Position numbers and translations under genes: made by a program. Below, in pieces: positions 18,710 to 31,781 of a stretch of 35,259 nt of DNA. Below the pieces are notes generated by a model, which saw nothing but the letters and a program-made list of their open reading frames with translations, was not told where the DNA came from and searched no databases. The stretch is taken from NCBI GenBank assembly GCA_947491305.1, contig CANLIL010000031.1, forward strand, positions 1-35,259, read 5' to 3'. The stretch comes from Flavobacteriales bacterium. GTDB lineage: Bacteria; Bacteroidota; Bacteroidia; Flavobacteriales_D; Crocinitomicaceae. Every line of letters begins with the position of its first letter. Within the stretch, counting starts at the first letter, position 1.

Positions 18710-18783
18710 TCTTCCTTAGCTCAGTTGGTTAGAGCATCTGACTGTTAATCAGAGGGTCCTTGGTTCGAGCCCAAGAGGAAGAG
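18710..18783 (+). tRNA. tRNA-Asn (GTT)
   Basis: A 74-nt cloverleaf. The acceptor stem is TCTTCCT paired with AGGAAGA, the D arm GCTC...GAGC, the anticodon arm TCTGA-CTGTTAA-TCAGA with anticodon GTT, and the T arm CTTGG-TTCGAGC-CCAAG. The discriminator base is G, as expected for Asn. CCA is not encoded. A terminator follows 7 bp later. Confidence 0.96.
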
Positions 18784-18790
18784 CAAAATA

Positions 18791-19593: not shown

Positions 19594-21513
19594 TCAAAAA
19601 CTTACTTGACGTAAAATTGTTTTTCCAAATGGAATTAAGGTAATTGTTTCTATTTGATTGGTGTTTTTGTTTTTTGCATGGACCATTATTTTTCCTGCGT
19701 TGAATCGTGCGTTATGTTCCTCAATATATTGAAAACGAGTATTTTCTATTGGCTTGTATGAAATATCAGTGAATTGTTTGTAATACGTTTTTCCAGTTAA
19801 CTCTAGTGCATCAATCGATTTAGCATAGAACATTGCACCATAACTGAAATACTTTTCTTTGTTAACGTCTTCTTTGATTTCAACGTTGGCTTTAAATTCT
19901 AGTTCAATAGTTGTACTATTGTTTGCATTCACTTCAAAAACTAAGCAATCATTTTCTACAAAATATCTCTGATTACAAACGATTTCTATCGCCCAAGTAG
20001 GTTTTCTAATCTTTATTTTGAACTGACTTCTTTGTGGGTTTTTAATGACATAAGTAAACGTATTAGCATAAGGGAAATCTGTAATTGTCTCTATTGTTAC
20101 TTTCTGATTTTGAAGTGTAGTTTGAATGACGTTTGGCATTAACAGTAGATTTACCAATGCCGAATCATTTTCTTTCATCCATGCTTTTTCAATGAAATAT
20201 GGTGTGATTCTTCCTGCATTAGGATTACAACAAACGGCAACATCTTGGTGTGCTGGCGAATATTTATAGCGTATTTGTTTTCTGTCTGGTTCAATTTCTC
20301 CATTTTTTGTACCTTCCATTTCATAAGAATTGTCGGTTTTTAGATACGCAATACAAGAATGATTTGGATTTCGAGATCCTTGCGCTGCATTGTAAAAAAT
20401 CGTTTCAATTTTTTCAGCTGTTTTTGCATCTCCTTGTTTTTGTAACAAAACCGAATAGCTATCAACTAATTCCTGCAACGAACAATACTCATAACCTGTA
20501 GTTGTTGCATTGGCCATTCTTTCAGCAATCCATTCATCACCAATTGCGCCACCAGTGAGCGTTGTGGCATGCTCAATACGATGGATGTAAACGTCAAGCG
20601 CTTGTTGGATTTCACGATTGTTGGACGCATATGCCGCAACAATTAATGGTCTCAAATGCTCATATGTGTGAACACCATGGGATTGTAACTTAAACGCAGG
20701 ATTTAAAATGTTTTGCAATTGAACATCTTTTTCAGACTGATAGGTTTTACAAAAATCCTGGTACAAAAAAAGTGCATAATCAGTATACTTAGTATCGCTT
20801 GTTAGTTGATACATTTTATCCAATACATCGGTAAAGGTTAAACCGTGAGAAACGCCGCCATTGAATGCAGTTCCAGAAGAAAATGGACTTGATTGTCCTA
20901 TCGGATAATTGAGCATTACATTATCTACAGCTCTCAAAAGCGCAGACCAAACTTTTGTATCTTTTGAGAATTCGTAATACGCTAATAAACCACGAAATAG
21001 TGTTGCTTTTGACCAAAGTTCTCCATTTTCTGAATTAAAATGATAACGTAAATCTTGATCGTAAATCCCAATATAACCATCTTTATCCTGTGAATTCAAA
21101 ACTTCTCGGATGTGCTTTTGGACTTTTTTAAGTCCTGCTTTATCATTTAATAGCAGAACATTTCTGATGTAACCATCCCACCAATTGGATTGGGTTTCGC
21201 TGTTCCACCATTTGTACTGTTCGTCGCCTGCTGCATCACCTTCTTTCTGATTTCCTAAATCTTTCGCTTTTGAATTTTTGTGCAAACGACCAGCACTATA
21301 AATTGGATCATTGATTAAACTCGGCACAATTTTATCCAAATTCCCAACAAACCCATCAATGTCTTTTTGCATCTGTTTTTTTATCCAGCCCGATGGTTTT
21401 ATACTTCCAAAAGGAAGCGTTTTAAATTTTTCTTCTACTTTGTTGGGGTTTTGAGCGTAAAAATTCAATGTGTTGATCGCCAGTAGCAGAAAGAATAAGT
21501 GTTTTCTTTTCAT
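19594..21513 (-). CDS. GH127-like glycoside hydrolase (beta-L-arabinofuranosidase family, DUF1680)
   Basis: A 639-residue exported enzyme with a signal peptide at 1-20. The body resembles the GH127/DUF1680 (alpha/alpha)6 barrel, whose known members cleave beta-L-arabinofuranosides with a zinc-bound cysteine nucleophile. Visible counterparts are GYEYCSLQELV, with E342 and C344, and VAVCCNPNAGRI, with C428 and C429. The characterised enzyme HypBA1 has a further cysteine two residues before its CC pair; here that position is alanine (426), so metal binding may differ. It starts 9 bp after the GH92 stop and is part of the operon led by the gene at 26692. Substrate is uncertain: related families cover several sugars. 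Confidence 0.8.
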   Translation of the reverse strand: MKRKHLFFLLLAINTLNFYAQNPNKVEEKFKTLPFGSIKPSGWIKKQMQKDIDGFVGNLDKIVPSLINDPIYSAGRLHKNSKAKDLGNQKEGDAAGDEQYKWWNSETQSNWWDGYIRNVLLLNDKAGLKKVQKHIREVLNSQDKDGYIGIYDQDLRYHFNSENGELWSKATLFRGLLAYYEFSKDTKVWSALLRAVDNVMLNYPIGQSSPFSSGTAFNGGVSHGLTFTDVLDKMYQLTSDTKYTDYALFLYQDFCKTYQSEKDVQLQNILNPAFKLQSHGVHTYEHLRPLIVAAYASNNREIQQALDVYIHRIEHATTLTGGAIGDEWIAERMANATTTGYEYCSLQELVDSYSVLLQKQGDAKTAEKIETIFYNAAQGSRNPNHSCIAYLKTDNSYEMEGTKNGEIEPDRKQIRYKYSPAHQDVAVCCNPNAGRITPYFIEKAWMKENDSALVNLLLMPNVIQTTLQNQKVTIETITDFPYANTFTYVIKNPQRSQFKIKIRKPTWAIEIVCNQRYFVENDCLVFEVNANNSTTIELEFKANVEIKEDVNKEKYFSYGAMFYAKSIDALELTGKTYYKQFTDISYKPIENTRFQYIEEHNARFNAGKIMVHAKNKNTNQIETITLIPFGKTILRQVSF

Positions 21514-21522
21514 CTTATATAA

Positions 21523-23676
21523 TTATTTATTGGTCATCTGGAATTTTAACGAACCCCCATTCATAAGTTCATCATACATTACAAAAGGCCTTTTCAGTTG
21601 AATGCCATTCAATGTTGGAGATTCTTGGAATATGTGTTCTTTTGAAAAATTAGCCGCTTTTATATTGAACGTTTTATTGTTTTGTAAATGCAGGGTTGCT
21701 TTTTTAACTTGGGGCGCTCCAATCACAAATTCACCACTTGCAGGATTTACTGGATAAAATCCCAAGGTTGATAAGATGTACCAAGCCGACATTTGTCCAC
21801 AATCATCGTTGCCAATCATCCCATTTGGCGTATTATTATGAAAATCATTGATGATTTTATGAATGTATTGTTGACCAAGTTTTGGTGAATCTGAAAAAGC
21901 ATAGAGGTAAACAATGTGATGACTCGGTTCGTTTCCGTGGGCGTATTGTCCAATCATCGCTTCTTGTCCTAAAAATTTATTCGGATTTTTACTTTCAATG
22001 GTGAAAAAATCAGTTAGTTTTTTGGTGAAAGCCGATGTTCCTCCCAATAGATTTTTCATACCCTCTGCATCATATTGCGCTGGAGTCCAAAAGTATTGCC
22101 AAGCATTCGCTTCGGTATAATCGCCTGGATTGTTCATGGGCGAAGTAGCTGTCAAAGGGTCAAACGGACTTCGCCAATTGCCTTTACTGTCTTTCCCTCG
22201 AAATAATTGCGATTCTTTATCAAATAGATGTTGGTAATAATTGGCTCTTTTTTGAAATTGAAGCAGGATTTGTTGCTCGTTCAAATTAGATGCCATTTGA
22301 GCAACACACCAATCATCATAACCTGATTCCAAGGTTCTTGAAACTGCTTCATTATCTAATTTATCAAAGGGATAATACCCAAATTGATTGTACAGTTCCC
22401 AATCAGAATTGATGTGACTTTTGGTGGATGTTTCAAGCATTGCTTTGAAGGCTTCAGTAGCATCAAAACCTCTAAACCCATTTTTATACGCAGCTAAAAT
22501 CATTGGAATTGCATGATTGCCAATCATACAGTAATTATCCTGGCCCCATGCTGTCCAAATTGGTAAAAATCCTGCTGTTTTGTGATGAATCAGTAGCGTA
22601 TTAATGATGCCATTTATTTTTTCAGGTGCAACAATTTGTAGTAAAGGAAATGCGCCACGGTAAACGTCCCAATTGGAAAGTGTTGAATAATATTCGTTGT
22701 TGGGGGCCTTTGCAATTTGATCATCAGCGCCACGGTAGTAGCCATCAACATCTGCGAGGTTAGAGGGTTGCAAAAACAAATGATACATAGATGTATAAAA
22801 AATTTCTTTTTGTTTTGCCGGTGCTTCTATTTCAATTCGATTGAGGTATTCGTTCCAAACAGATTCTGCATGGTGAGTAACTTTTTCAAAATTCCAATGT
22901 GGGATTTCCGTTTGTAAATTTAATTTTGCCCCAGCTACACTAACTGTTGAGAGTGCAATTTTCACTTGTAATACCTTGCTTTTTTTTAATTTAAAGTCCA
23001 ATATAAATTTTGGCGCATTTTGCTTTTTCCCTTTTGGAAGTTCTTCCATTTTATGGAAAGGCGTATTAAAAGCAATTGTAAAAAAATATTTTTTAGTAAC
23101 CCACCCTTTTGTTTTACAATACCCTGAAATAGTGGAATCGTTTTCAATAGTTAAATCACTTTCTAACACCAAACTATCGTTTAAAAATTGAATACCGTGT
23201 TGAAAATCGAGTAATAATTTTGCCCACTGATTGGGATACGTGTACTTGTGAAAAGCGACACGTTCCGAACAACTCAATTCAACATTAACACCATCCTTTT
23301 TAATTAACGCATAATACCCAACATGGGATTTTTCAGAATTTTTATAATAACTATTCTTTAACGCTGCATTTTGTTCGTTATAAGGTAGTAAAAGTATGTT
23401 CCCCATTTCACCAATTCCTGTTCCGCTTAGCCTCATTTGAGAAAATCCTAAAAGTAACGTATCGTTGTATTGGTAACCACTTGTATGATTCCACCCTTCT
23501 GTCGAATTGTCTGGGCCGGGTTGCACCATTCCAAATGGCAAAGAAGGCCCAGGAAACGTATGACCCGTTCCATCTGTTCCAATAAACGTATTTACAAAGT
23601 TGGAATTATTTTGAGCGCTTACATTCAAAACACAAAACGAAAACAACAAACGATATAAAGAGGTTCTTAGTTCCAT
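21523..23676 (-). CDS. GH92 family glycoside hydrolase (alpha-mannosidase type)
   Basis: A 717-residue exported enzyme with a signal peptide at 1-21. GH92 enzymes are calcium-dependent exo-alpha-mannosidases. Family landmarks are all here: NFVNTFIGTDGTGHTFPGPS and PFGMVQPGPD at the N-terminus, a middle region with WDVYRGAFPLLQI, then HGNEPSHHIVYLY, GMIGNDDCGQMSAWY and GFYPVNPASGEFVIG. The paired aspartates in GNDD fit the expected catalytic base region. Its start overlaps the end of the MFS porter gene by 10 bp, showing tight operon packing, and the GH127-like gene follows 9 bp downstream. A periplasmic role trimming mannose-type oligosaccharides is inferred. Confidence 0.93.
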   Translation of the reverse strand: MELRTSLYRLLFSFCVLNVSAQNNSNFVNTFIGTDGTGHTFPGPSLPFGMVQPGPDNSTEGWNHTSGYQYNDTLLLGFSQMRLSGTGIGEMGNILLLPYNEQNAALKNSYYKNSEKSHVGYYALIKKDGVNVELSCSERVAFHKYTYPNQWAKLLLDFQHGIQFLNDSLVLESDLTIENDSTISGYCKTKGWVTKKYFFTIAFNTPFHKMEELPKGKKQNAPKFILDFKLKKSKVLQVKIALSTVSVAGAKLNLQTEIPHWNFEKVTHHAESVWNEYLNRIEIEAPAKQKEIFYTSMYHLFLQPSNLADVDGYYRGADDQIAKAPNNEYYSTLSNWDVYRGAFPLLQIVAPEKINGIINTLLIHHKTAGFLPIWTAWGQDNYCMIGNHAIPMILAAYKNGFRGFDATEAFKAMLETSTKSHINSDWELYNQFGYYPFDKLDNEAVSRTLESGYDDWCVAQMASNLNEQQILLQFQKRANYYQHLFDKESQLFRGKDSKGNWRSPFDPLTATSPMNNPGDYTEANAWQYFWTPAQYDAEGMKNLLGGTSAFTKKLTDFFTIESKNPNKFLGQEAMIGQYAHGNEPSHHIVYLYAFSDSPKLGQQYIHKIINDFHNNTPNGMIGNDDCGQMSAWYILSTLGFYPVNPASGEFVIGAPQVKKATLHLQNNKTFNIKAANFSKEHIFQESPTLNGIQLKRPFVMYDELMNGGSLKFQMTNK

Positions 23677-25031
23677 AAATCTTCCATTTGTTCTAGGCTT
23701 TTGTTTTTAGTTTCTGGTACATTTTTCCAAACAAACAATAAAGATACTAGGCAAATTAATGCAAATAGATAAAATGGAAATGCGCCATTAAAATGTGTTT
23801 TCAACCACTCATTCTCAACTAAACTTGGAAAAACTTGTGTTACAACAAAATTGGCAACCCATTGGATAAATACGCTTATTGCCAACGCCAAACTTCTTAT
23901 TTTACTTGGAAAGATTTCCGACAACAATACCCAAACAATAGGTCCCCAAGAAATACTAAATGATGCCATAAACAGCAATAAAAAAGGCAAAACCCAATTT
24001 CCAAGTGCGTTAAAGTGAATAAATAATCCAACGGCCAACAATGCAGTGGTCATTCCAAAAGACCCAATAAAAAGCAATGGTTTTCTTCCCATTTTATCCA
24101 CCCAACGAATTGCTAATAAGGTAAAAATTAAATTTACTACACCAAGAATACTGGTCTCCAATAATGAAACATCGGTTGAACTTCCTAAGCTTTTAAAAAT
24201 TTCTGGTGCATAATATAAAATTGCATTAATTCCTGTTAACTGTTGCAAAACAGACAGCCCAATTCCAACAAAAAGAGCTTTTTTAAAAATTGGATTTACC
24301 AATAATTTCCATTGTTTTTTGTCTTCTTGTTGAAATGATTCTTGAATTTCGGCTTGTACCTGAGACACATCTTCCTCCCTATTTATTTTATGTAAAACAG
24401 CAAGTGCTTTGTTTGTATGTCCTTTTTGAATTAACCAGCGAGGACTTTCTGGAATGAAAAATATAAAAAGTAAAAAAAGCAAAGAAGGCACTAATTCTGA
24501 GCCAAACATCCAGCGCCAACCTATCGTTAAATTCCAATTAGCATCTCCTTGTAATGCTATTAAATAATTCACAAAATATACAACTACAATACCGATTACA
24601 ATTGCTAATTGATAGTTGCCAACTAATGCACCTCGTCTTTTAGGAGGCGCGATTTCAGCGATGTACATTGGAACAACCATTGAGGCAATTCCCACACCAA
24701 TTCCACCAACTATTCTAAAAAACACAAACATTGAAAATGAAGTTGGCAAAGCCGTTCCAATGGAATTTAAAATAAAAAGAATTGCAGTAATAAACATCGT
24801 TGCCCTTCTGCCAAATTTATTGCTGAGAAAATCAGAGAAAAAAGCACCAATCAAACACCCAACTAATGCACTTGAAATTGCCCATCCTGTTTCAATTGGA
24901 TTTAAATGAAAATAGGCTGTTAAATTTCCAATGGCTCCTGAAATTACAGCTGTGTCGTATCCAAATAACAAACCGCCAAGTGCAGCACTTAACGCAATAA
25001 ATAGAATGTAGTTTTTATTGGTATTATCCAT
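23667..25031 (-). CDS. MFS sugar:proton symporter (XylE-like sugar porter)
   Basis: A 454-residue major facilitator with 12 predicted helices. Sugar-porter motifs are intact: GGLLFGYDTAVISGA in helix 1, NKFGRRATM after helix 2, PESPRWL in the central region, QQLTGINAILYYAPEIF in helix 7 and PETKNKSLEQME at the C-terminus. It should import a monosaccharide across the inner membrane. It overlaps the isomerase gene upstream by 8 bp and the GH92 gene downstream by 10 bp. In this operon it probably brings in the sugar freed by the two glycosidases. The sugar cannot be named from sequence. Confidence 0.93.
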   Translation of the reverse strand: MDNTNKNYILFIALSAALGGLLFGYDTAVISGAIGNLTAYFHLNPIETGWAISSALVGCLIGAFFSDFLSNKFGRRATMFITAILFILNSIGTALPTSFSMFVFFRIVGGIGVGIASMVVPMYIAEIAPPKRRGALVGNYQLAIVIGIVVVYFVNYLIALQGDANWNLTIGWRWMFGSELVPSLLFLLFIFFIPESPRWLIQKGHTNKALAVLHKINREEDVSQVQAEIQESFQQEDKKQWKLLVNPIFKKALFVGIGLSVLQQLTGINAILYYAPEIFKSLGSSTDVSLLETSILGVVNLIFTLLAIRWVDKMGRKPLLFIGSFGMTTALLAVGLFIHFNALGNWVLPFLLLFMASFSISWGPIVWVLLSEIFPSKIRSLALAISVFIQWVANFVVTQVFPSLVENEWLKTHFNGAFPFYLFALICLVSLLFVWKNVPETKNKSLEQMEDLWN

Positions 25032-25872
25032 TTTTAAAAAGATTTTGTTGTAAATAGTGTTTCATCTGAAGGTTAATTTCCCATTGATTGGAAAGCGGTT
25101 CTTTTGTGAATGGCGCTTCAGGCATATACGGAAATGGCCCAAATTCTGGTGTGATTGTTAGTGGCAAATGCAATGCAGTTTGAACTTTCATCACCTCCTC
25201 CCACCAACCAAGATAGCGATCAAGATAGCTTTTCCACTCAGGCGCAAAAGGATTGTTAACTTGTGGACTTTGCTCAAAACCAATTCGAGCATGAATGTGG
25301 TGGATATTGGGATATAATTTAACTAATAATTCTTGTTGATCTTCTAAATTGCTTTCAGAAACGACACAAAAATGTGATAAATCAGCAACAAGTTTTAATG
25401 TTGGATAACGATCGAGATACGATAAGAGCGTTTTTAAATGGAACGTAAATCGCCCACGGTGGATTTCGTGAACAATTGGAATACCCGATTTACTGGCTAT
25501 TTCCGCTGTACAATCAATTATTCTACAATTATCATTAAAATCATAATAGTCTTTTCCTGTATGCGAATTAATGAAAGTTGGTTTTAAGTCAACTAAAAAT
25601 TCTAATCGGCTTTTAATTCTTTTGAGGTAGTCTTCAACTGATTCGTTTTGGTTAGACAAAACTTGTTGCGCTATAAAAATGAAATCACGATCTATTGTTT
25701 TTCTGATTCGTTCTAATTCTGTCATAAATTCAGCAACAAAATGCGCATCATCAGGTAAATTTATTTCAACACCACGATAACCATTATTTACAACGTTTGC
25801 TAAAAATTCTTTAGCCGTTTGCTGTTCACAACCCCAGTAAGTACAAGTGTAATTTACGTTCATATTATTCAC
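25024..25872 (-). CDS. sugar phosphate isomerase/epimerase-like TIM-barrel protein
   Basis: A 282-residue protein of the xylose isomerase-like TIM-barrel (AP endonuclease family 2) superfamily. Candidate metal ligands appear in order: VHEIHRGRF, LVADLSHFCVV, HIHARIGFEQ and ITPEFGPFPYM. Such proteins isomerise or epimerise sugars and inositols, or act as sugar lyases. There is no signal peptide, so it is cytoplasmic. It overlaps the dioxygenase gene upstream by 8 bp and the MFS porter downstream by 8 bp, so it likely processes what that porter imports. A second ATG three codons in is an alternative start. Reaction not identifiable. Confidence 0.82.
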   Translation of the reverse strand: MNNMNVNYTCTYWGCEQQTAKEFLANVVNNGYRGVEINLPDDAHFVAEFMTELERIRKTIDRDFIFIAQQVLSNQNESVEDYLKRIKSRLEFLVDLKPTFINSHTGKDYYDFNDNCRIIDCTAEIASKSGIPIVHEIHRGRFTFHLKTLLSYLDRYPTLKLVADLSHFCVVSESNLEDQQELLVKLYPNIHHIHARIGFEQSPQVNNPFAPEWKSYLDRYLGWWEEVMKVQTALHLPLTITPEFGPFPYMPEAPFTKEPLSNQWEINLQMKHYLQQNLFKNG

Positions 25873-26692
25873 TGAATAAAACTGGATTTATGGGAGAGTT
25901 AATCACTTCACCAACTTTTGCTCCTGGACACCAAGTATTCCAATCATGAATTTGATTGCTGTTTTCAGGTGATTTTAAAAGCATGTCTTTTTCCATGTAA
26001 ATGATGGTCATCACTTTTCTCATTTCGTTGGTATTGTTTGCCCCTGCTCGGTGAAAAACCCACCCTGAATGAAAACTAATTTCACCAATATCAAATGGTT
26101 CTATCACATGCTTGAAATCAGTTACACGTAATTTTTTTTGTATGAATGCTTCGCTCTCATCGCCAATTTCTAACTCACGACCTTCAACAATGGTATGACT
26201 CCCAGCACTAAATTCAAGCGGACCCATTTCGAGAGGTGTTGCTTGAAGCGGCATCCATGCTGTAACAGTTTTATCTGTTTCGAGTGGCCAATAATATTGG
26301 TCAGCATGCCATGGTGTTATACCTCCTCCTGCTTCTTTGTACAATGCTTGATCGTGGTACAAACGAACACCATTTACTTCCATCAAATCTGCAGCTATTT
26401 TTGCGAGTCTTTTACTAAAAATTAATTCTTTAACGATCGAATTTTCGAGCCATAAGTTGAACAATTGTAAAAAAGCTTTTCCATAAGTTGACCGTTCTTC
26501 TAAAGTCGTTTCTTCTTGATTCATTTCATCAACTTGTTGTGAAATAACTGCATTAAAATATTCAACCGTTTCTGAGTTTAAAACACTTTTCAATTTAATG
26601 AAGCGATTTTTTTGATAAAATTCAATTTGATCATTCGATAATGAATAAGGGGTCGCCAAGAATTCCTTAATTGATGCAGGTACTATTTTCAT
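25865..26692 (-). CDS. phytanoyl-CoA dioxygenase (PhyH) family Fe(II)/2-oxoglutarate oxygenase
   Basis: A 275-residue PhyH-family oxygenase, which would hydroxylate a small molecule using Fe(II), oxygen and 2-oxoglutarate. The metal-binding HxD is WHADQYYWPL (H129, D131), the distal histidine is likely H214 in WVFHRAGANN, and R225 fits the 2-oxoglutarate-binding arginine. No signal peptide. It leads the minus-strand operon, with its own -7 box at 26714-26721, and overlaps the TIM-barrel gene by 8 bp. An oxygenase heading a sugar-use operon suggests a modified sugar or sugar acid as substrate. This is inference; PhyH proteins have very diverse substrates. Confidence 0.85.
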   Translation of the reverse strand: MKIVPASIKEFLATPYSLSNDQIEFYQKNRFIKLKSVLNSETVEYFNAVISQQVDEMNQEETTLEERSTYGKAFLQLFNLWLENSIVKELIFSKRLAKIAADLMEVNGVRLYHDQALYKEAGGGITPWHADQYYWPLETDKTVTAWMPLQATPLEMGPLEFSAGSHTIVEGRELEIGDESEAFIQKKLRVTDFKHVIEPFDIGEISFHSGWVFHRAGANNTNEMRKVMTIIYMEKDMLLKSPENSNQIHDWNTWCPGAKVGEVINSPINPVLFSE

Positions 26693-26713
26693 TTTTTACG
26701 CTTTTATGAAATC

Positions 26714-26721
26714 CAAAACTA
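26714..26721 (-). promoter_or_regulatory. -7 element of the PhyH/sugar operon
   Basis: On the minus strand TAGTTTTG fits TAnnTTTG, 21 bp before the ATG at 26692. No TTG lies at -33, as might be expected for an activator-dependent promoter. Confidence 0.45.
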
Positions 26722-26755: not shown

Positions 26756-26820
26756 TTTATTTATAACACTATATTGAATATTTATTTAAAATAAAGTCTC
26801 TATTTAGGAAATAAAAACCC

Positions 26821-27657
26821 ATGAAAGCAATACTTGAAGACATACAATTAGAAAAAGGAACAGCTAGCTTTCATGCTTATTTAGTTGAAGTACCTTTTTT
26901 TGAGTTCAAATGGCATTACCATCCAGAATATGAATTAACCTATATCATTAAAGGAAACGGATTCAGGATTTTAGGAAATACCTATGAAAATTACACAAAT
27001 GGAGATTTCGTTTTACTGGGCTCAAATCTTCCCCACACATGGTCTGGAAATTCAAATCAATCTGAAAATTCGCAAGCAATTGTTATTCAATTTTCTCATG
27101 AATTAATTCAATCTTTTTTAAATTTTGAAGAAAGTGAACATTTAAAAATCATGCTTGAACAAGCAAAAAGAGGAATTCAATTTACTCCCGAAAAAGAAAT
27201 TGCGACTCAATTAAAAGAACTATTAACTGCGAAAGGGATGGATCGAATATTACAGTTAATATCCATTTTAGATGTCTTAGCTAAAAAAACGAATCGAATC
27301 ATAAATCCAAATACTTTTCACAACATCCTTTCCACTAAAAATGAGCTTCGAATAAATAAAGTTTGCCACTACATTCAAAACAATTACAACAGCGCAATTC
27401 AGTTAAAACAGGTTGCTGACCTCATCTTTTTAACAGAAAGTAACTTCTGTAAATTCTTCAAAAAAGCAACTGGAAAAACTTTTTCTGATTATGTCAATGA
27501 AATTCGAATCAATGAAGCTTGCAGGTTATTAATCCAATCTGAAAAAACAATCAACCAAATTTCATTTGAATGCGGTTTTGAAACCTTAAGCTACTTTAAT
27601 CGCGTATTCTTAAAAAAGAAAAATAGTACTCCATCAAATTATCGAAAAATAGCATAA
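26821..27657 (+). CDS. AraC-family transcriptional regulator with cupin sensor domain
   Basis: A 278-residue regulator. The N-terminal cupin-like ligand domain carries FKWHYHPEYELTYIIKG and GDFVLLGSNLPHTW. The C-terminal double helix-turn-helix (about 178-277) has IQLKQVADLIFLTESNFCKF as first and INQISFECGFETLSYFNRVF as second recognition unit, ending TPSNYRK. It lies divergent from the sugar operon with a 128-bp shared region containing promoters for both sides. It most likely senses the imported sugar and activates that operon; AraC members commonly do so for adjacent genes. The ligand is unknown. Confidence 0.9.
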   Translation: MKAILEDIQLEKGTASFHAYLVEVPFFEFKWHYHPEYELTYIIKGNGFRILGNTYENYTNGDFVLLGSNLPHTWSGNSNQSENSQAIVIQFSHELIQSFLNFEESEHLKIMLEQAKRGIQFTPEKEIATQLKELLTAKGMDRILQLISILDVLAKKTNRIINPNTFHNILSTKNELRINKVCHYIQNNYNSAIQLKQVADLIFLTESNFCKFFKKATGKTFSDYVNEIRINEACRLLIQSEKTINQISFECGFETLSYFNRVFLKKKNSTPSNYRKIA

Positions 27658-27724: not shown

Positions 27725-28063
27725 ATGTATTCATCAGAACTAATAAAAGGAACTTTAAAAACGATTATATTAAAGTTATTGTCGGACAACGACAAAATGT
27801 ATGGGTATGAGATTACTCATAAAGTAAAAGAACTTACGGGTGGAAAAATTCAATTGACAGAAGGTGCGTTGTATCCTACATTACATGCATTGGAAGCACA
27901 AGGAATTTTATCCACAGATGTGGTTAATGTAGGAAACCGCATTCGTAAGTATTATTCGGTCACTCCAAACGGGAAGAAAGTTGCAACAGAAAAAGTCAAT
28001 GAATTTTCTGAATTTTTGGATACCATGATTTTCTTGTTAGACTTGCAACCTAAACTGGGATAG
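27725..28063 (+). CDS. PadR-family transcriptional regulator
   Basis: A 112-residue winged-helix regulator. The PadR pattern is complete: IILKLLSDNDKMYGYEITHK, then LTEGALYPTLHALEAQGIL, and the wing VGNRIRKYYSVTPNGKK. Its C-terminal helix is short, as in the PadR-s2 type. The next gene, a membrane protein, begins one base after the stop (TAG-T-ATG), so the two are co-expressed. PadR regulators often repress the membrane-protein gene beside them, and the inverted repeat over the -7 region would allow autorepression. No other target is apparent. Confidence 0.93.
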   Translation: MYSSELIKGTLKTIILKLLSDNDKMYGYEITHKVKELTGGKIQLTEGALYPTLHALEAQGILSTDVVNVGNRIRKYYSVTPNGKKVATEKVNEFSEFLDTMIFLLDLQPKLG

Positions 28064-28064
28064 T

Positions 28065-29195
28065 ATGTACGTTTTAACGGACGAACAAATTGCATTCATT
28101 CGCAATGACATTAGACGTAATGGAATTGAGCTAGAAGAGCTGCAGCTCGATCTATTGGATCATATTTGTTGTGTTATTGAAACAGAATATACTGCCGAAA
28201 ACAACTTCGAAGCGTTTTACCGAAGCATTTTACCCCGTTTTTATAAGCGATCGCTTCGGGAAATTGAAGAAGAAACACACTTATTATTAACCTTTAAAAA
28301 TTATTACGCTATGAAAAAAATAATGATCATCAGTGGAACATTTTCAGCTTTTACAGTGTTAATTGGTTCCTTGTTTAAAGTAATGCATTGGCCAGGGGCT
28401 GCAATGCTTTTTGTGTTGGCAATCGCGCTATTTAGTTTTGTTTTTCTTCCAATACTTTCTGTTATTCGGATAAAAGAACAAACGAAAACGAAGGATAAAA
28501 TTGTTATCATCGCTGCTGCAATATTTGGAAGTGCAATCAGTTTAGCCATCTTATTCAAAGTGATGCACTGGCCGTTTGCAAACATCCTTTGGACGATCTC
28601 ACTTGGAATCTTGTTTTTCTTGTTTTTACCCATTTACTTTTTTGGAGGTATTCGAAATCCTGAAACCAAAACGAATACAATCGTTTCTTCCATTTTGATT
28701 TTAATTGCTGGTGGCTTGTTGTTTTTAATCACTAACTTAAGAGGAAGTCATGCATTTGATGAAGCGATTGTAAATGCTGACCAACAAATCGTAGAGAATT
28801 ATCAGCTATTGAGTCAAAAAAATCCAAGCGATACCGTTGCAATTCATCCTACTATTAATGAAAAAGCAACGGAACTTTGCGCTTTAATTGAAACATTAAA
28901 AGTCAAACTCACCTCATCGGTTTCGAATGATGGTAAAGACATGAAAGAAGCAACTGCGGTTCTTTTGAAAGGTCATTTGACTGAGCCAATTCAAACGCAA
29001 TTATTTGATAAAAATGGAATAGCTTCAGCTAGATTGAAAACAATTCAATTGAATGTGAAAGCGTTTGAAAAATTAGCAAACACAAAAATTAATTGGAATG
29101 CTCAACAAGTAAAGGACCTTCCATTGAGCTATGTACTGCGCAATTTAAACTTGTTGTTGTTGCGCATTAGAATTTTACAACACACAAATCACTAA
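28065..29195 (+). CDS. PadR-associated membrane protein with two GldL-like FKVMHWP motifs
   Basis: A 376-residue inner-membrane protein. Residues 1-75 form a soluble charged segment with LQLDLLDHICCVIE, reminiscent of the small cytoplasmic domains that head PadR-linked membrane proteins. Four or five hydrophobic segments follow between about 84 and 223. LFKVMHWPGA (from 103) and LFKVMHWPFA (from 163) are nearly identical and resemble the KxxHWPGA signature next to the first helix of the gliding/T9SS motor protein GldL. The rest (about 224-376) is a soluble region, probably helical and extracytoplasmic. The repeat implies an internal duplication of a two-helix unit. Function unknown; a link to GldL is motif-level only. 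Confidence 0.75.
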   Translation: MYVLTDEQIAFIRNDIRRNGIELEELQLDLLDHICCVIETEYTAENNFEAFYRSILPRFYKRSLREIEEETHLLLTFKNYYAMKKIMIISGTFSAFTVLIGSLFKVMHWPGAAMLFVLAIALFSFVFLPILSVIRIKEQTKTKDKIVIIAAAIFGSAISLAILFKVMHWPFANILWTISLGILFFLFLPIYFFGGIRNPETKTNTIVSSILILIAGGLLFLITNLRGSHAFDEAIVNADQQIVENYQLLSQKNPSDTVAIHPTINEKATELCALIETLKVKLTSSVSNDGKDMKEATAVLLKGHLTEPIQTQLFDKNGIASARLKTIQLNVKAFEKLANTKINWNAQQVKDLPLSYVLRNLNLLLLRIRILQHTNH

Positions 29196-29295: not shown

Positions 29296-29628
29296 ATGGG
29301 AATTACAAAAACAGCCTTATTCACTTCGGAAGAAAATGAATTGGCAATTGTTTTAAAAGCATTGGGTCACCCAGCGCGTATTGCAATCATGAATTATTTA
29401 ACCAAAATGAATGAATGTATTTGTGGCGATTTAGTCAATGAATTACCTTTGGCGCAACCGACCATCTCACAACATTTAAAAGAATTAAAAAATGCTGGCT
29501 TGATTCAAGGAACGATTGAAGGAACATCGATTTGTTATTGCATCAATCCTGACGGTTTCGAAAAGGTAAAATCATTTTTTGACGTACTTACTATTTCGAT
29601 CCAAACAAAACATAAATCGTGTTGCTAA
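29296..29628 (+). CDS. arsR: ArsR-family arsenic-responsive repressor
   Basis: A 110-residue winged-helix repressor. The core is KALGHPARIAIMNYL followed by PTISQHLKELKNAGLI, the DNA-recognition helix. Cysteines 41 and 43 in NECICGDLV fit the alpha-3 metalloid site (ELCVC type) that binds As(III) and releases DNA. Two more cysteines end the protein (KSCC, 109-110) and could be a third ligand or second site. It is first in an operon with a DUF6428 protein, an ArsC-like phosphatase and an Acr3 pump, which supports the arsenic role. A palindrome overlapping its promoter is the likely operator. The next gene starts 13 bp downstream. Confidence 0.92.
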   Translation: MGITKTALFTSEENELAIVLKALGHPARIAIMNYLTKMNECICGDLVNELPLAQPTISQHLKELKNAGLIQGTIEGTSICYCINPDGFEKVKSFFDVLTISIQTKHKSCC

Positions 29629-29641
29629 AAAATAAAAAATT

Positions 29642-30112
29642 ATGAAATTATCTCAAATTAAAGCGCTCTTAAAAACAGTTGCTACTGTTTCGTTTAAATT
29701 ACCAAATGGGGAATTAGTTCCTGCACATTTCCATGTAACAGAAGTTGGAAAAATTACAAAAAACTTCATTGATTGTGGTGGAACTATTCGAAATGAAGCA
29801 TTGGTTGGTTTTCAATTATGGACCGCAAATGATACAGAACATAGTCTTAAACCGCAAAAATTAATTGATATAATCGAATTATCTGAAAAAAAGTTGCAAA
29901 TTGAAGATCATGAAGTGGAGGTAGAATTCCAAGACACTACGATAGGAAAATATGCAATCGGCTTTGACGGAACGCATTTTTTATTGCTTAACAAATTATC
30001 GGATTGTTTAGCAAAGGACAAATGTGGCATTCCTGAAGAGAAGCAAAAAATTCAATTAGTTGACTTATCACAAACTGGAAATACGTGTACGCCAGGAGGT
30101 GGATGTTGTTAA
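29642..30112 (+). CDS. DUF6428 family protein of the ars operon
   Basis: A 156-residue soluble protein of the DUF6428 family, which I recall from arsenic operons of Bacteroidota. Conserved-looking parts are PNGELVPAHFHVTEVGKI, FIDCGGTIRNE and DCLAKDKCGIPEEK. The C-terminus is TCTPGGGCC, with two vicinal cysteines and a third six residues before, a plausible As(III) site; two further cysteines sit in DCLAKDKC. No signal peptide or helix spans are seen, so it is cytoplasmic. It lies 13 bp after arsR and 16 bp before the phosphatase gene. A role as metallochaperone or sensor for arsenite is my inference; no function is established to my knowledge. Confidence 0.8.
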   Translation: MKLSQIKALLKTVATVSFKLPNGELVPAHFHVTEVGKITKNFIDCGGTIRNEALVGFQLWTANDTEHSLKPQKLIDIIELSEKKLQIEDHEVEVEFQDTTIGKYAIGFDGTHFLLLNKLSDCLAKDKCGIPEEKQKIQLVDLSQTGNTCTPGGGCC

Positions 30113-30128
30113 ATTAATTGTAGAAAAA

Positions 30129-30743
30129 ATGTATCCAAACATCACACAATATTGCAACAATTTGGTGCAACAATTTGACACGCTTTCTTCAGAACGAATA
30201 GAAGTTTTAGCTAAAATCTCGACGTATATTCAATCCAAAATAGCGCAAAAAGAACCCATTCAATTAATGTATGTTTGTACCCACAATTCGCGCAGAAGTC
30301 ATTTTGGACAAATTTGGGCAGCAGTTGCAGCGAACTATTATTCCATTCCAAACCTTAGCACATTTTCTGGCGGAACAGAAGCAACAGCATTTAATGAAAA
30401 TGCGATTCATGCCTTGGAAGAAACCGGGTTTGAAATCTCTGAACTTTCAACAGGTAATAATCCTCATTACCGCGTAAATTTTGGTGAAAACCTATATACG
30501 ACGTGTTTCTCAAAAGTGTACGATGATGCTGTCAATCCAACTTCCAACTTTGCTGCTATTATGACTTGTTCAGATGCGGAAGAAAATTGTCCGTTTATTC
30601 CAGGAGTTGAATTGCGTATAGCAACAACTTATGACGACCCAAAAGCTTTTGACAACACACCCGTTCAAGGTGCAAAATATTTAGAACGCTCCAACCAAAT
30701 TGCCTTGGAGTGTTTGTATGTTTTTTCACGTTTAAAAAAATAA
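30129..30743 (+). CDS. ArsC-like low-molecular-weight phosphatase (arsenate reductase candidate)
   Basis: A 204-residue protein of the LMW protein-tyrosine-phosphatase fold, used in many ars operons as arsenate reductase. The P-loop CX5R is YVCTHNSRRSHFGQ with C50 and R56, and the later general-acid DP motif is TTYDDPKAF. Compared with the 130-140-residue arsenate reductases it carries an N-terminal helical extension of about 40 residues and an insertion with extra cysteines (YTTCFSKVY, MTCSDAEENCPF), which could supply the resolving thiols. I chose ATG 30129; the frame is open to a TTG at 30060 inside the preceding gene. The acr3 ATG follows 3 bp after its stop. Arsenate reduction is inferred from operon context. 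Confidence 0.82.
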   Translation: MYPNITQYCNNLVQQFDTLSSERIEVLAKISTYIQSKIAQKEPIQLMYVCTHNSRRSHFGQIWAAVAANYYSIPNLSTFSGGTEATAFNENAIHALEETGFEISELSTGNNPHYRVNFGENLYTTCFSKVYDDAVNPTSNFAAIMTCSDAEENCPFIPGVELRIATTYDDPKAFDNTPVQGAKYLERSNQIALECLYVFSRLKK

Positions 30744-30746
30744 AAA

Positions 30747-31781
30747 ATGCCTTCAAAAAAACGATTATCCTTTCTCGACAGCTATTTAACATTATGGATA
30801 TTTCTTGCCATGTTATTAGGTATTGGAATTGGTTATTTTATTCCATCGAGTAGTCAATTTATTAACTCCTTTTCTTCAGGATCTACGAATATTCCATTAG
30901 CCATTGGATTGATTTTAATGCTTTATCCGCCATTAACAAAAATCGACTTTAAGAAAATGAATGTCGTTTTTAAAAGTGGGAAATTAGTAACTGCTTCCTT
31001 TTTCATCACCTGGATTTTTGGTCCATTCTTAATGTTTAGTTTGGCTGTATTCTTCTTAAAAGATTACCCTGAATATATGACAGGATTGATCATCATTGGT
31101 TTGGCACCGTGCATTGCCATGGTCATTGTTTGGAATGAATTAGCGGAAGGAAACCGAGAATTAACTGCTGGATTGGTTGGGATTAACAGTATCCTTCAAG
31201 TACTCTTTTTTAGTTCCTACGCCTACTTTTACCTTGAGATTATGTTGCCTTTATTTGGAATTCAAAAACTAAGTATTGACATTACAATTGGTGAAATTGC
31301 GCAAACAGTTGGCATCTATCTGGGCATTCCGTTTTTTTTGGCTATTAGCAGCCGAGTCCTGTTATTAAAACTAAAAGGTGAAACGTGGTTTAATCACCAA
31401 TTCATCCCCTTTGTTTCGCCAATCACATTACTAGCCTTGTTGTTTACAATTGTCGTGATGTTCAGTTTAAAAGGAGAAATGATTGTTGATTTACCACTAG
31501 ATGTTTTAAGAATTGCAATTCCATTAGTTATCTTTTTCGCTTGTATGTTTTTTATCATGTTTATCGTTGCAAAAAAATTAGGTGCAAATTATAAAGATAC
31601 AGTAGCGTTATCATTTACTGCATCGGGGAATAATTTTGAACTAGCCATTGCTGTCTCAATCGGTGTTTTTGGAATCAACAGTGGTCAAGCCTTTGCGGGC
31701 GTTATTGGGCCATTAGTAGAAGTTCCAGCACTGATTCTATTAGTCAATGTTGCTTTTTGGTTGCGAAAAAAATGGTTTTAA
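30747..31781 (+). CDS. acr3: arsenite efflux transporter, Acr3 family
   Basis: A 344-residue membrane protein with about ten helices, matching Acr3 in length. The family motif LAPCIAMVIVWNELA contains the essential cysteine, C122, and NIPLAIGLILMLYPPLTKI and SFTASGNNFELAIAVSIGVF are further signatures. Acr3 exports arsenite using the proton gradient. It is last in the arsR-DUF6428-phosphatase-acr3 operon and starts 3 bp after the preceding stop. Its stop overlaps that of the convergent reductase gene by 4 bp, with no terminator hairpin evident between them. Confidence 0.95.
   Translation: MPSKKRLSFLDSYLTLWIFLAMLLGIGIGYFIPSSSQFINSFSSGSTNIPLAIGLILMLYPPLTKIDFKKMNVVFKSGKLVTASFFITWIFGPFLMFSLAVFFLKDYPEYMTGLIIIGLAPCIAMVIVWNELAEGNRELTAGLVGINSILQVLFFSSYAYFYLEIMLPLFGIQKLSIDITIGEIAQTVGIYLGIPFFLAISSRVLLLKLKGETWFNHQFIPFVSPITLLALLFTIVVMFSLKGEMIVDLPLDVLRIAIPLVIFFACMFFIMFIVAKKLGANYKDTVALSFTASGNNFELAIAVSIGVFGINSGQAFAGVIGPLVEVPALILLVNVAFWLRKKWF

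Follow-up and report, generated by a model that had tools for sequence, protein, structure and literature searches.

A conserved oxygenase-led operon of Bacteroidota as a candidate pathway for a modified monosaccharide

The window, the whole stretch of DNA analysed here, comprises 35,259 nucleotides of contig CANLIL010000031.1 from a Flavobacteriales bacterium (Crocinitomicaceae) and contains a five-gene operon headed by a PhyH-family oxygenase, followed by a TIM-barrel enzyme (TIM), a sugar porter and two glycosidases. The operon is real and conserved: its arrangement is beyond chance, being seen again in dozens of genomes, and the exact reaction is a guess. The locus very probably processes sugar. 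The combined statement, that it forms a pathway for a modified monosaccharide and most likely O-demethylates a methylated hexose or pentose, falls somewhat short of an even chance, and O-demethylation as the specific chemistry is tentative. What the sequences show directly is the gene content, its conservation, a conserved operator and intact putative active sites; we infer the localization, the direction of flow, the induction and every chemical step. The features concerned are as follows.

25865..26692, minus strand: PhyH-family Fe(II)/2-oxoglutarate (2OG) oxygenase, first gene of the operon (Pfam PF05721, E 3.9e-20)
25024..25863 (first-start open reading frame to 25872), minus strand: xylose-isomerase-like TIM-barrel sugar isomerase/epimerase (Pfam PF01261, AP_endonuc_2, E 5.3e-9)
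23667..25031, minus strand: MFS sugar porter of the XylE type (Pfam Sugar_tr, E 7.7e-125)
21523..23676, minus strand: GH92 alpha-mannosidase, apparently exported (Pfam GH92, E 1.2e-154)
19594..21513, minus strand: divergent GH127-like glycosidase, apparently exported (Pfam GH127 catalytic domain, E 1.8e-15)
26821..27657, plus strand: divergent AraC-family regulator with a cupin-like sensor domain (Pfam HTH_18 and AraC_binding)
26764..26778, minus strand: conserved operator TTCAATATAGTGTTA between the AraC and PhyH genes
26713..26721, minus strand: -7-like promoter element TAGTTTTGG, 55 bp downstream of the operator core

Layout and conservation of the operon

An earlier note, made from the sequence alone, had described five open reading frames (ORFs) here; they lie on the minus strand exactly where it placed them, in the same order, and Pfam agrees with all five families that it named. 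The overlaps of 8, 8 and 10 bp and the 9-bp gap that it gave hold for the first-start ORFs, with the reservation that the PhyH/TIM overlap is probably not real. A TIM start at GTG 25872 creates this overlap, and ATG 25863 (residue 4) leaves a 1-bp gap, as in loci L008 and L009; the ATG is the likely start because the majority of orthologous TIM proteins begin there. The tight coupling of the genes stands despite the doubtful overlap. The divergent AraC gene and the operator before PhyH are features absent from the earlier description. The operon of the window contains no kinase or dehydrogenase.

The neighbourhood survey covers 47 loci, the window included, whose PhyH is at least 60% identical to that of the window; L191 (31%) and L022 (no PhyH on the contig) are excluded. 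The divergent AraC gene is present in 46 of the 47 (exception L189), and in these 46 the gene nearest to the operator on the other side is PhyH. TIM comes next on the strand of PhyH in 43 of 45 assessable loci, L136 and L190 ending inside PhyH; in L177 the contig includes no more than the beginning of TIM, in L180 TIM comes after 176 bp and in L093 it is broken by a stop. A glycosidase belongs to the cluster in 38 of 40 assessable loci (exceptions L007 and L189), a count that leaves out seven early-ending contigs (L093, L136, L169, L170, L177, L183 and L190). The check that the earlier note had proposed, co-conservation of the pair with sugar genes, thus turns out in its favour.

The glycosidase is interchangeable between GH92, GH127-like and GH13 enzymes, and the porter is optional. 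Among the 26 Flavobacterium loci, twelve have GH92 with the GH127-like gene, three have GH92 and then the contig end, three combine the GH127-like gene with GH13, one has the GH127-like gene only and one GH13 only; no glycosidase is seen in the other six. The 13 loci of group g22 consist of ten with GH92 and GH13 and three in which the contig ends after GH92. L019 and L020 carry the GH127-like gene only, and L092 has two GH13 genes. The porter is seen in 22 of the 47 loci; in some of the rest the contig stops before its presence can be judged.

The operon is scattered in its occurrence. Within the window's genus, a search at E <= 1e-20 detects neither PhyH nor TIM in any of the other 25 genomes. 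TIM occurs in 15 of 240 genomes of the family at E <= 1e-40, the window's own included, and PhyH in 16 of 399 genomes of the order at E <= 1e-30. In the genus around G344, taken as Flavobacterium, 27 of 398 genomes have PhyH, 26 of them as close orthologs. A TIM scan with one genome per species over 84,980 species, which detects close relatives only, returns 16 loci, all Bacteroidota by title. As a hint at habitat, four of these 16 record titles say 'pond' and two name Erken, a lake; the remaining ten are uninformative. Among open-licence papers on PhyH or 2OG oxygenases with sugar loci, a set outside which most subscription journals lie, no description of the PhyH/TIM pair was found.

One ortholog stands apart: at L189:9732-11965, a PhyH gene (64%) without AraC, TIM or glycosidase immediately follows the gene for a serine hydroxymethyltransferase, which may point to one-carbon metabolism or be chance.

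Regulator and operator

The operator was surveyed in 38 of the 46 AraC/PhyH spacers. Its core CAATATAG is present in 35 of the 38; L188 carries CAATATGG, L171 has one mismatch and L093 is without a clear core. A TAnnTTTG-type element, which we take to be the Bacteroidota -7-like promoter element, lies 52-55 bp past the operator in 33 of 36 pattern-anchored spacers (L187 being anchored on an earlier match). A second, weaker half-site is visible by eye about 21 bp downstream of the operator, for example in L020.

The exact pattern TTCAATATAGTRTYA occurs at the operon in 32 of 39 PhyH-bearing genomes, with a single match in the genome of the window. It is absent from G880, G1014, G1045, G1090, G1122, G1155 and G1162, most of which have a near match in the spacer. 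The pattern is derived from these spacers, and therefore its rarity elsewhere is the informative part. In 31 of the 32 pattern-bearing genomes the copy at the operon is the only one, and the one extra copy, in G983, is inside a gene. Among twenty control genomes without the operon, four contain the pattern, with five copies in all; four of the copies are inside ORFs and the fifth (L228) touches the 3' end of an ORF. The reversed pattern has zero matches in 59 genomes. Because exact copies are so rare elsewhere, the regulator appears dedicated to the operon, as judged from the exact pattern, weaker sites not having been sought. A wider AraC regulon was considered and set aside on the same exact-pattern search, as nearly all copies beyond the operon are inside ORFs.

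The oxygenase and the TIM-barrel enzyme

PhyH belongs to its superfamily with 73.5 bits against a Pfam cut-off of 22. In the rows covering them, with the window and the distant L191 included, H129 and D131 are invariant (48/48), as are H214 and R225 (46/46); we take H129, D131 and H214 to be the HxD...H iron triad and R225 to be the 2OG-binding arginine. Catalysis is predicted to depend on iron and 2OG, and oxygen dependence is probable because the Fe/2OG residues are intact. The nearest solved relatives are SnoK, SnoN and MysH, then EctD and EvdO2, with profile E-values that reach only from 3e-15 (SnoK) to 2e-4 (EvdO2). SnoK/SnoN, MysH and EvdO2 are biosynthetic enzymes, unlike the catabolic role proposed here. 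The predicted structure of PhyH is poor (predicted local distance difference test score, pLDDT, 60.7).

TIM is assigned to AP_endonuc_2 by 36.6 bits against a cut-off of 31.1 and by the TIM fold of its AlphaFold model (pLDDT 87.6). The model matches D-tagatose and L-ribulose 3-epimerases, IolE, IolI and C-glycoside-cleaving complexes with Z of 18-20 (maximum 20.3), at 6-16% identity over the listed chains. E136, D164, H167, H194, R196 and E243 are invariant in the 43-44 rows covering them; all except R196 are presumably metal-site residues as in D-tagatose 3-epimerase. TIM has the fold and the presumed metal site in common with this superfamily and differs from it in its low identity; its match to D-tagatose 3-epimerase proper is one of fold, at low identity. 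An NCBIfam search gives no model at E <= 0.001, and a sequence search against solved sequences gives no usable match.

The porter and the glycosidases

The best solved match of the porter is E. coli XylE (E 4.9e-127), and TIGR00879 places it in the sugar porter family (423.5 bits against a cut-off of 237.8). D26, Q141, Q263, Q264 and N269 are invariant in the rows covering them; the first is presumably the proton aspartate and the others the sugar-contact Gln/Asn residues. It is not assigned to the D-xylose transporter XylE proper, scoring 540.7 bits on the NCBIfam equivalog, below the cut-off of 608. Ile replaces XylE Gln175 in 21 of 21 rows covering it (window and L022 included), which we take to be GLUT-like and a weak hint at hexose.

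Both domains of GH92 are matched, and E450, E583, D624 and D625 are invariant in the 24-27 rows covering them, in keeping with family membership. The closest solved GH92 is 7zgm, the plant-N-glycan alpha-1,3-mannosidase B035DRAFT_03340 of the gut Bacteroides plant N-glycan enzymes, followed by 6f8z; in contrast to that system, the window operon is without a recognised PNGase or SusC/D and has an oxygenase. The GH127-like protein scores 57.3 bits against 24.9 for the Pfam catalytic domain, with E342, C344, C428 and C429, presumably the Glu/Cys3 zinc site, invariant in 20 of 20 rows (window included). It is predicted to be a divergent glycosidase with putative beta-L-arabinofuranosidase activity. 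The GH13 protein of other genomes, of about 510 amino acids, retains the catalytic motifs. Judged by eye from alignment rows, GH92, the GH127-like protein and this GH13 have hydrophobic, signal-like starts, and no such start is seen on PhyH, TIM or the 562-residue GH13 of L092. The glycosidases are thus apparently exported.

Proposed pathway and its alternatives

The operon is hypothesized to be an inducible, probably laterally moving catabolic unit whose target is a modified monosaccharide in the terminal positions of small glycans. The exo-glycosidases (GH92 and the GH127-like enzyme; elsewhere the GH13 with the signal-like start) would be exported and would trim such glycans in the periplasm, and the XylE-type proton symporter, where present, would import the released sugar, which, itself or once converted, may activate the AraC regulator at the operator. 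In the cytoplasm, PhyH with Fe(II), O2 and 2OG would hydroxylate an O-methyl group of the sugar; formaldehyde would leave and the plain sugar remain, which TIM would isomerize or epimerize into ordinary metabolism. Release, import and intracellular processing, as the earlier note had them, are the natural reading because the glycosidases look exported and the porter is of the sugar-symporter type; its order of isomerization before oxidation is without support. The lack of a kinase or dehydrogenase suggests a sugar that is cleaned of a decoration and whose product is accepted by housekeeping enzymes, and an O-methyl group would be the simplest decoration that a 2OG oxygenase can remove.

Candidate substrates may be the O-methyl sugars of green-algal N-glycans, such as 3-O-methyl mannose and methyl-arabinose. 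An excerpt of one report describes Chlorella N-glycans with terminal 3-O-methyl and 3,6-di-O-methyl mannose, in which methylation conferred resistance to jack bean mannosidase (PMC6344472); excerpts of two others describe arabinose, methyl-arabinose and, within one structure, both alpha- and beta-arabinofuranose (PMC7383745, PMC8107433). The match of these glycans to GH92, the GH127-like enzyme and an oxygenase is suggestive. The focus of the earlier note on mannose and arabinose fits the GH92/GH127-like version of the locus and is too narrow for the whole, as the glycosidase can also be GH13. A precedent is found in marine Flavobacteriia growing on porphyran, where, in the part of the report consulted, 6-O-methyl-D-galactose is oxidatively demethylated by a P450, a ferredoxin and a ferredoxin reductase (PMC10033563). 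Both cases place an O2-dependent enzyme acting on a monosaccharide before central metabolism in a catabolic locus of Bacteroidota; the excerpted system uses a P450 with redox partners, whereas the window has a 2OG oxygenase, PhyH, with a presumed reaction.

Several observations weigh against this proposal. The substrate of PhyH is assigned without direct evidence. Two Flavobacterium genomes listed as 99% complete (L188 and L189) keep PhyH and have no TIM homolog at E <= 1e-15, so the PhyH/TIM pair, which the earlier note had put forward as possibly defining a pathway, is not an obligatory unit. Neither AraC nor a glycosidase is near PhyH in L189, and L007 has PhyH, TIM and the porter without a glycosidase. 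The GH127-like protein is very divergent and only weakly matches solved GH127 members; GH13 can join or replace GH92/GH127, and N-glycans do not obviously explain it. The porter is seen in fewer than half of the loci, import elsewhere being unexplained. No formaldehyde-handling gene is present in the operon, the genome not having been searched for one. The excerpted algal reports do not settle the D or L form of the arabinose (PMC7383745, PMC8107433).

In a different chemistry, possible although doubtful, PhyH would turn the sugar taken up by the cell, or one with an amino or methoxy group, into a keto sugar by oxidizing a carbon of its ring, and TIM would epimerize or isomerize beside the ketone in the manner of the 3-keto-glycoside enzymes. 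The structural neighbours of TIM include D-tagatose 3-epimerase, IolE and the C-glycoside enzymes CarB and DgpB, which act next to ketones; SnoK and SnoN, the solved sequences nearest to PhyH, are biosynthetic enzymes whose target is a sugar ring; and in L059 a distant PhyH/TIM pair occurs with a glucosamine-6-phosphate-isomerase-like gene and a SIS-domain gene. However, the window's operon lacks a reductase that could complete the conversion of a keto sugar, and the two genomes with PhyH and no TIM argue against this chemistry too.

PhyH might instead act on a non-sugar aglycone or glycoconjugate fragment freed by the glycosidases, the sugar being inducer and by-product. Small metabolites other than sugars are the substrates of its relatives MysH and EctD, and PhyH is constant across loci in which the glycosidase varies; yet its usual partner is a TIM barrel of the sugar-isomerase type and the porter, if a locus has one, belongs to the XylE type, and a non-sugar substrate is unlikely. 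It is very improbable that the operon simply scavenges mannose or arabinose, with PhyH standing by or serving something unrelated. GH92, a sugar porter and an isomerase-like enzyme might by our reasoning suffice for mannose, but PhyH with AraC is the most constant part (46/47) and PhyH is the first gene behind the operator. In identity to the window, PhyH (63-85%) is also less variable than TIM (46-72%) or AraC (36-70%), and the porter (71-88%, 21 loci) is equally well conserved.

Returning to demethylation, its widest form has a rather low probability as a whole: an undescribed aerobic sugar pathway of Bacteroidota with PhyH instead of a P450 as the O-demethylase, a module of AraC, PhyH and usually TIM with swappable exo-glycosidases, and, as the target, methylated N-glycans by which green algae may shield their glycoproteins from foreign mannosidases. 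Its probability is slightly reduced because only six of 16 record titles point to fresh water. Oxygenases are, to our knowledge, unusual in sugar catabolism. Should a monosaccharide prove to be the substrate of PhyH, one protein would do for algal methyl sugars what the P450 system does with three. Some members of the large PhyH and AP_endonuc_2 families would then gain a function, and aquatic flavobacteria could be tied to the turnover of algal glycoproteins. Module, regulator and operator together make the proposal directly testable.

Absence of SusC/SusD and distant PhyH/TIM pairs

Polysaccharide utilization loci (PULs) of Bacteroidetes are recognized by a SusC/SusD pair, and the window has none: no SusD match is present in it, and no TonB receptor is found among ten further ORFs scanned, part of the window's ORFs. 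The operon resembles a PUL as a glycosidase operon with its own regulator and differs in lacking SusC/SusD and a recognised endo-acting enzyme and in using MFS import. The earlier note was correct that the operon is without SusC/SusD, which it read as a special sign; this second part does not hold. The absence is not diagnostic because the whole genome has a single SusD, on another contig, and because a distant PhyH/TIM pair (L191) lies inside a SusC/SusD locus. At L191:1-14722, PhyH (31%) and TIM (32%) are located between SusC/SusD and GH106, two GH28 genes, a ROK kinase and a GH92-like gene, the target being perhaps pectin-like. In L073, a PhyH-like gene adjoins a porter of 49% identity, and TIM and a rhamnosidase-like gene are a few genes away. 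L191 and L073 support a sugar role and speak for a PhyH/TIM pair that is no alternative to SusC/SusD. TonB-type outer-membrane proteins beside L182, L186 and L189 were considered as parts of the operon and rejected, being only 33% alike and of unclear membership; the L186 protein entered by sequence comparison rather than by a domain scan.

Other genomes of the phylum contain distant TIM homologs (E <= 1e-15) in 22 places, 20 of which were fetched. By blastp, PhyH is adjacent in three of the 20 (L059, L060 and L071), in addition to the PhyH-like gene nearby in L073; the other 16 have no PhyH near, which counts against a general TIM/PhyH rule. Two places without PhyH were domain-scanned, L061 (DUF1501, PSCyt1) and L062 (2-keto-3-deoxygalactonokinase, alpha-amylase), and a greedy ORF call did not find the TIM ORF in L069.

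A separate cluster recurs in L061, L066, L070, L074, L075, L076 and L077, consisting of a protein of about 900 amino acids, one of about 500, the distant TIM homolog and one of about 460. In L061, the sole one scanned, the second is DUF1501 and the last PSCyt1/DUF2231.

Lateral origin and surroundings

The operon is patchy and has likely moved laterally, to judge from trees and gene content. In a tree of PhyH, TIM and AraC over 36 chosen rows, in which L007 and L008 were added to the Flavobacterium-labelled group, the window joins 16 rows of that group in a set of 17 (97/95). Holding the window with the 13 g22 rows of its family is not rejected (approximately unbiased (AU) test, p 0.063, borderline), and for this reason the transfer is likely but unproven. 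In a 42-row tree of PhyH and TIM, the fork joining the window to the Flavobacterium rows is open (92/89), and grouping all 15 family rows, long-branched L092 included, is rejected (p 0.0014). The window shares the porter and the GH127-like gene with many Flavobacterium loci, and the g22 loci of its own family show neither. In L008, the AraC gene adjoins a phage-type integrase gene.

Between the 3' end of the operon and the UvrC/SSB genes there is a tRNA-Asn gene (18710-18784), a possible insertion site of a transferred block. No empty site at this tRNA was seen in G025, G016, G008 and G002, in which the flanks are on different contigs. Beyond the AraC gene, positions 27725-29195 encode a PadR regulator and then a GldL_N-containing membrane protein, which is matched in 17 of 26 genomes of the genus, with PadR beside it in six of six loci read. 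The stretch at 29296-31781 looks like an arsenic resistance cluster: an ArsR-type regulator, DUF6428, an arsenate-reductase-like ORF (by eye, without a Pfam match) and an SBF-type transporter. Genes matching this cluster follow PadR in G025 and G016.

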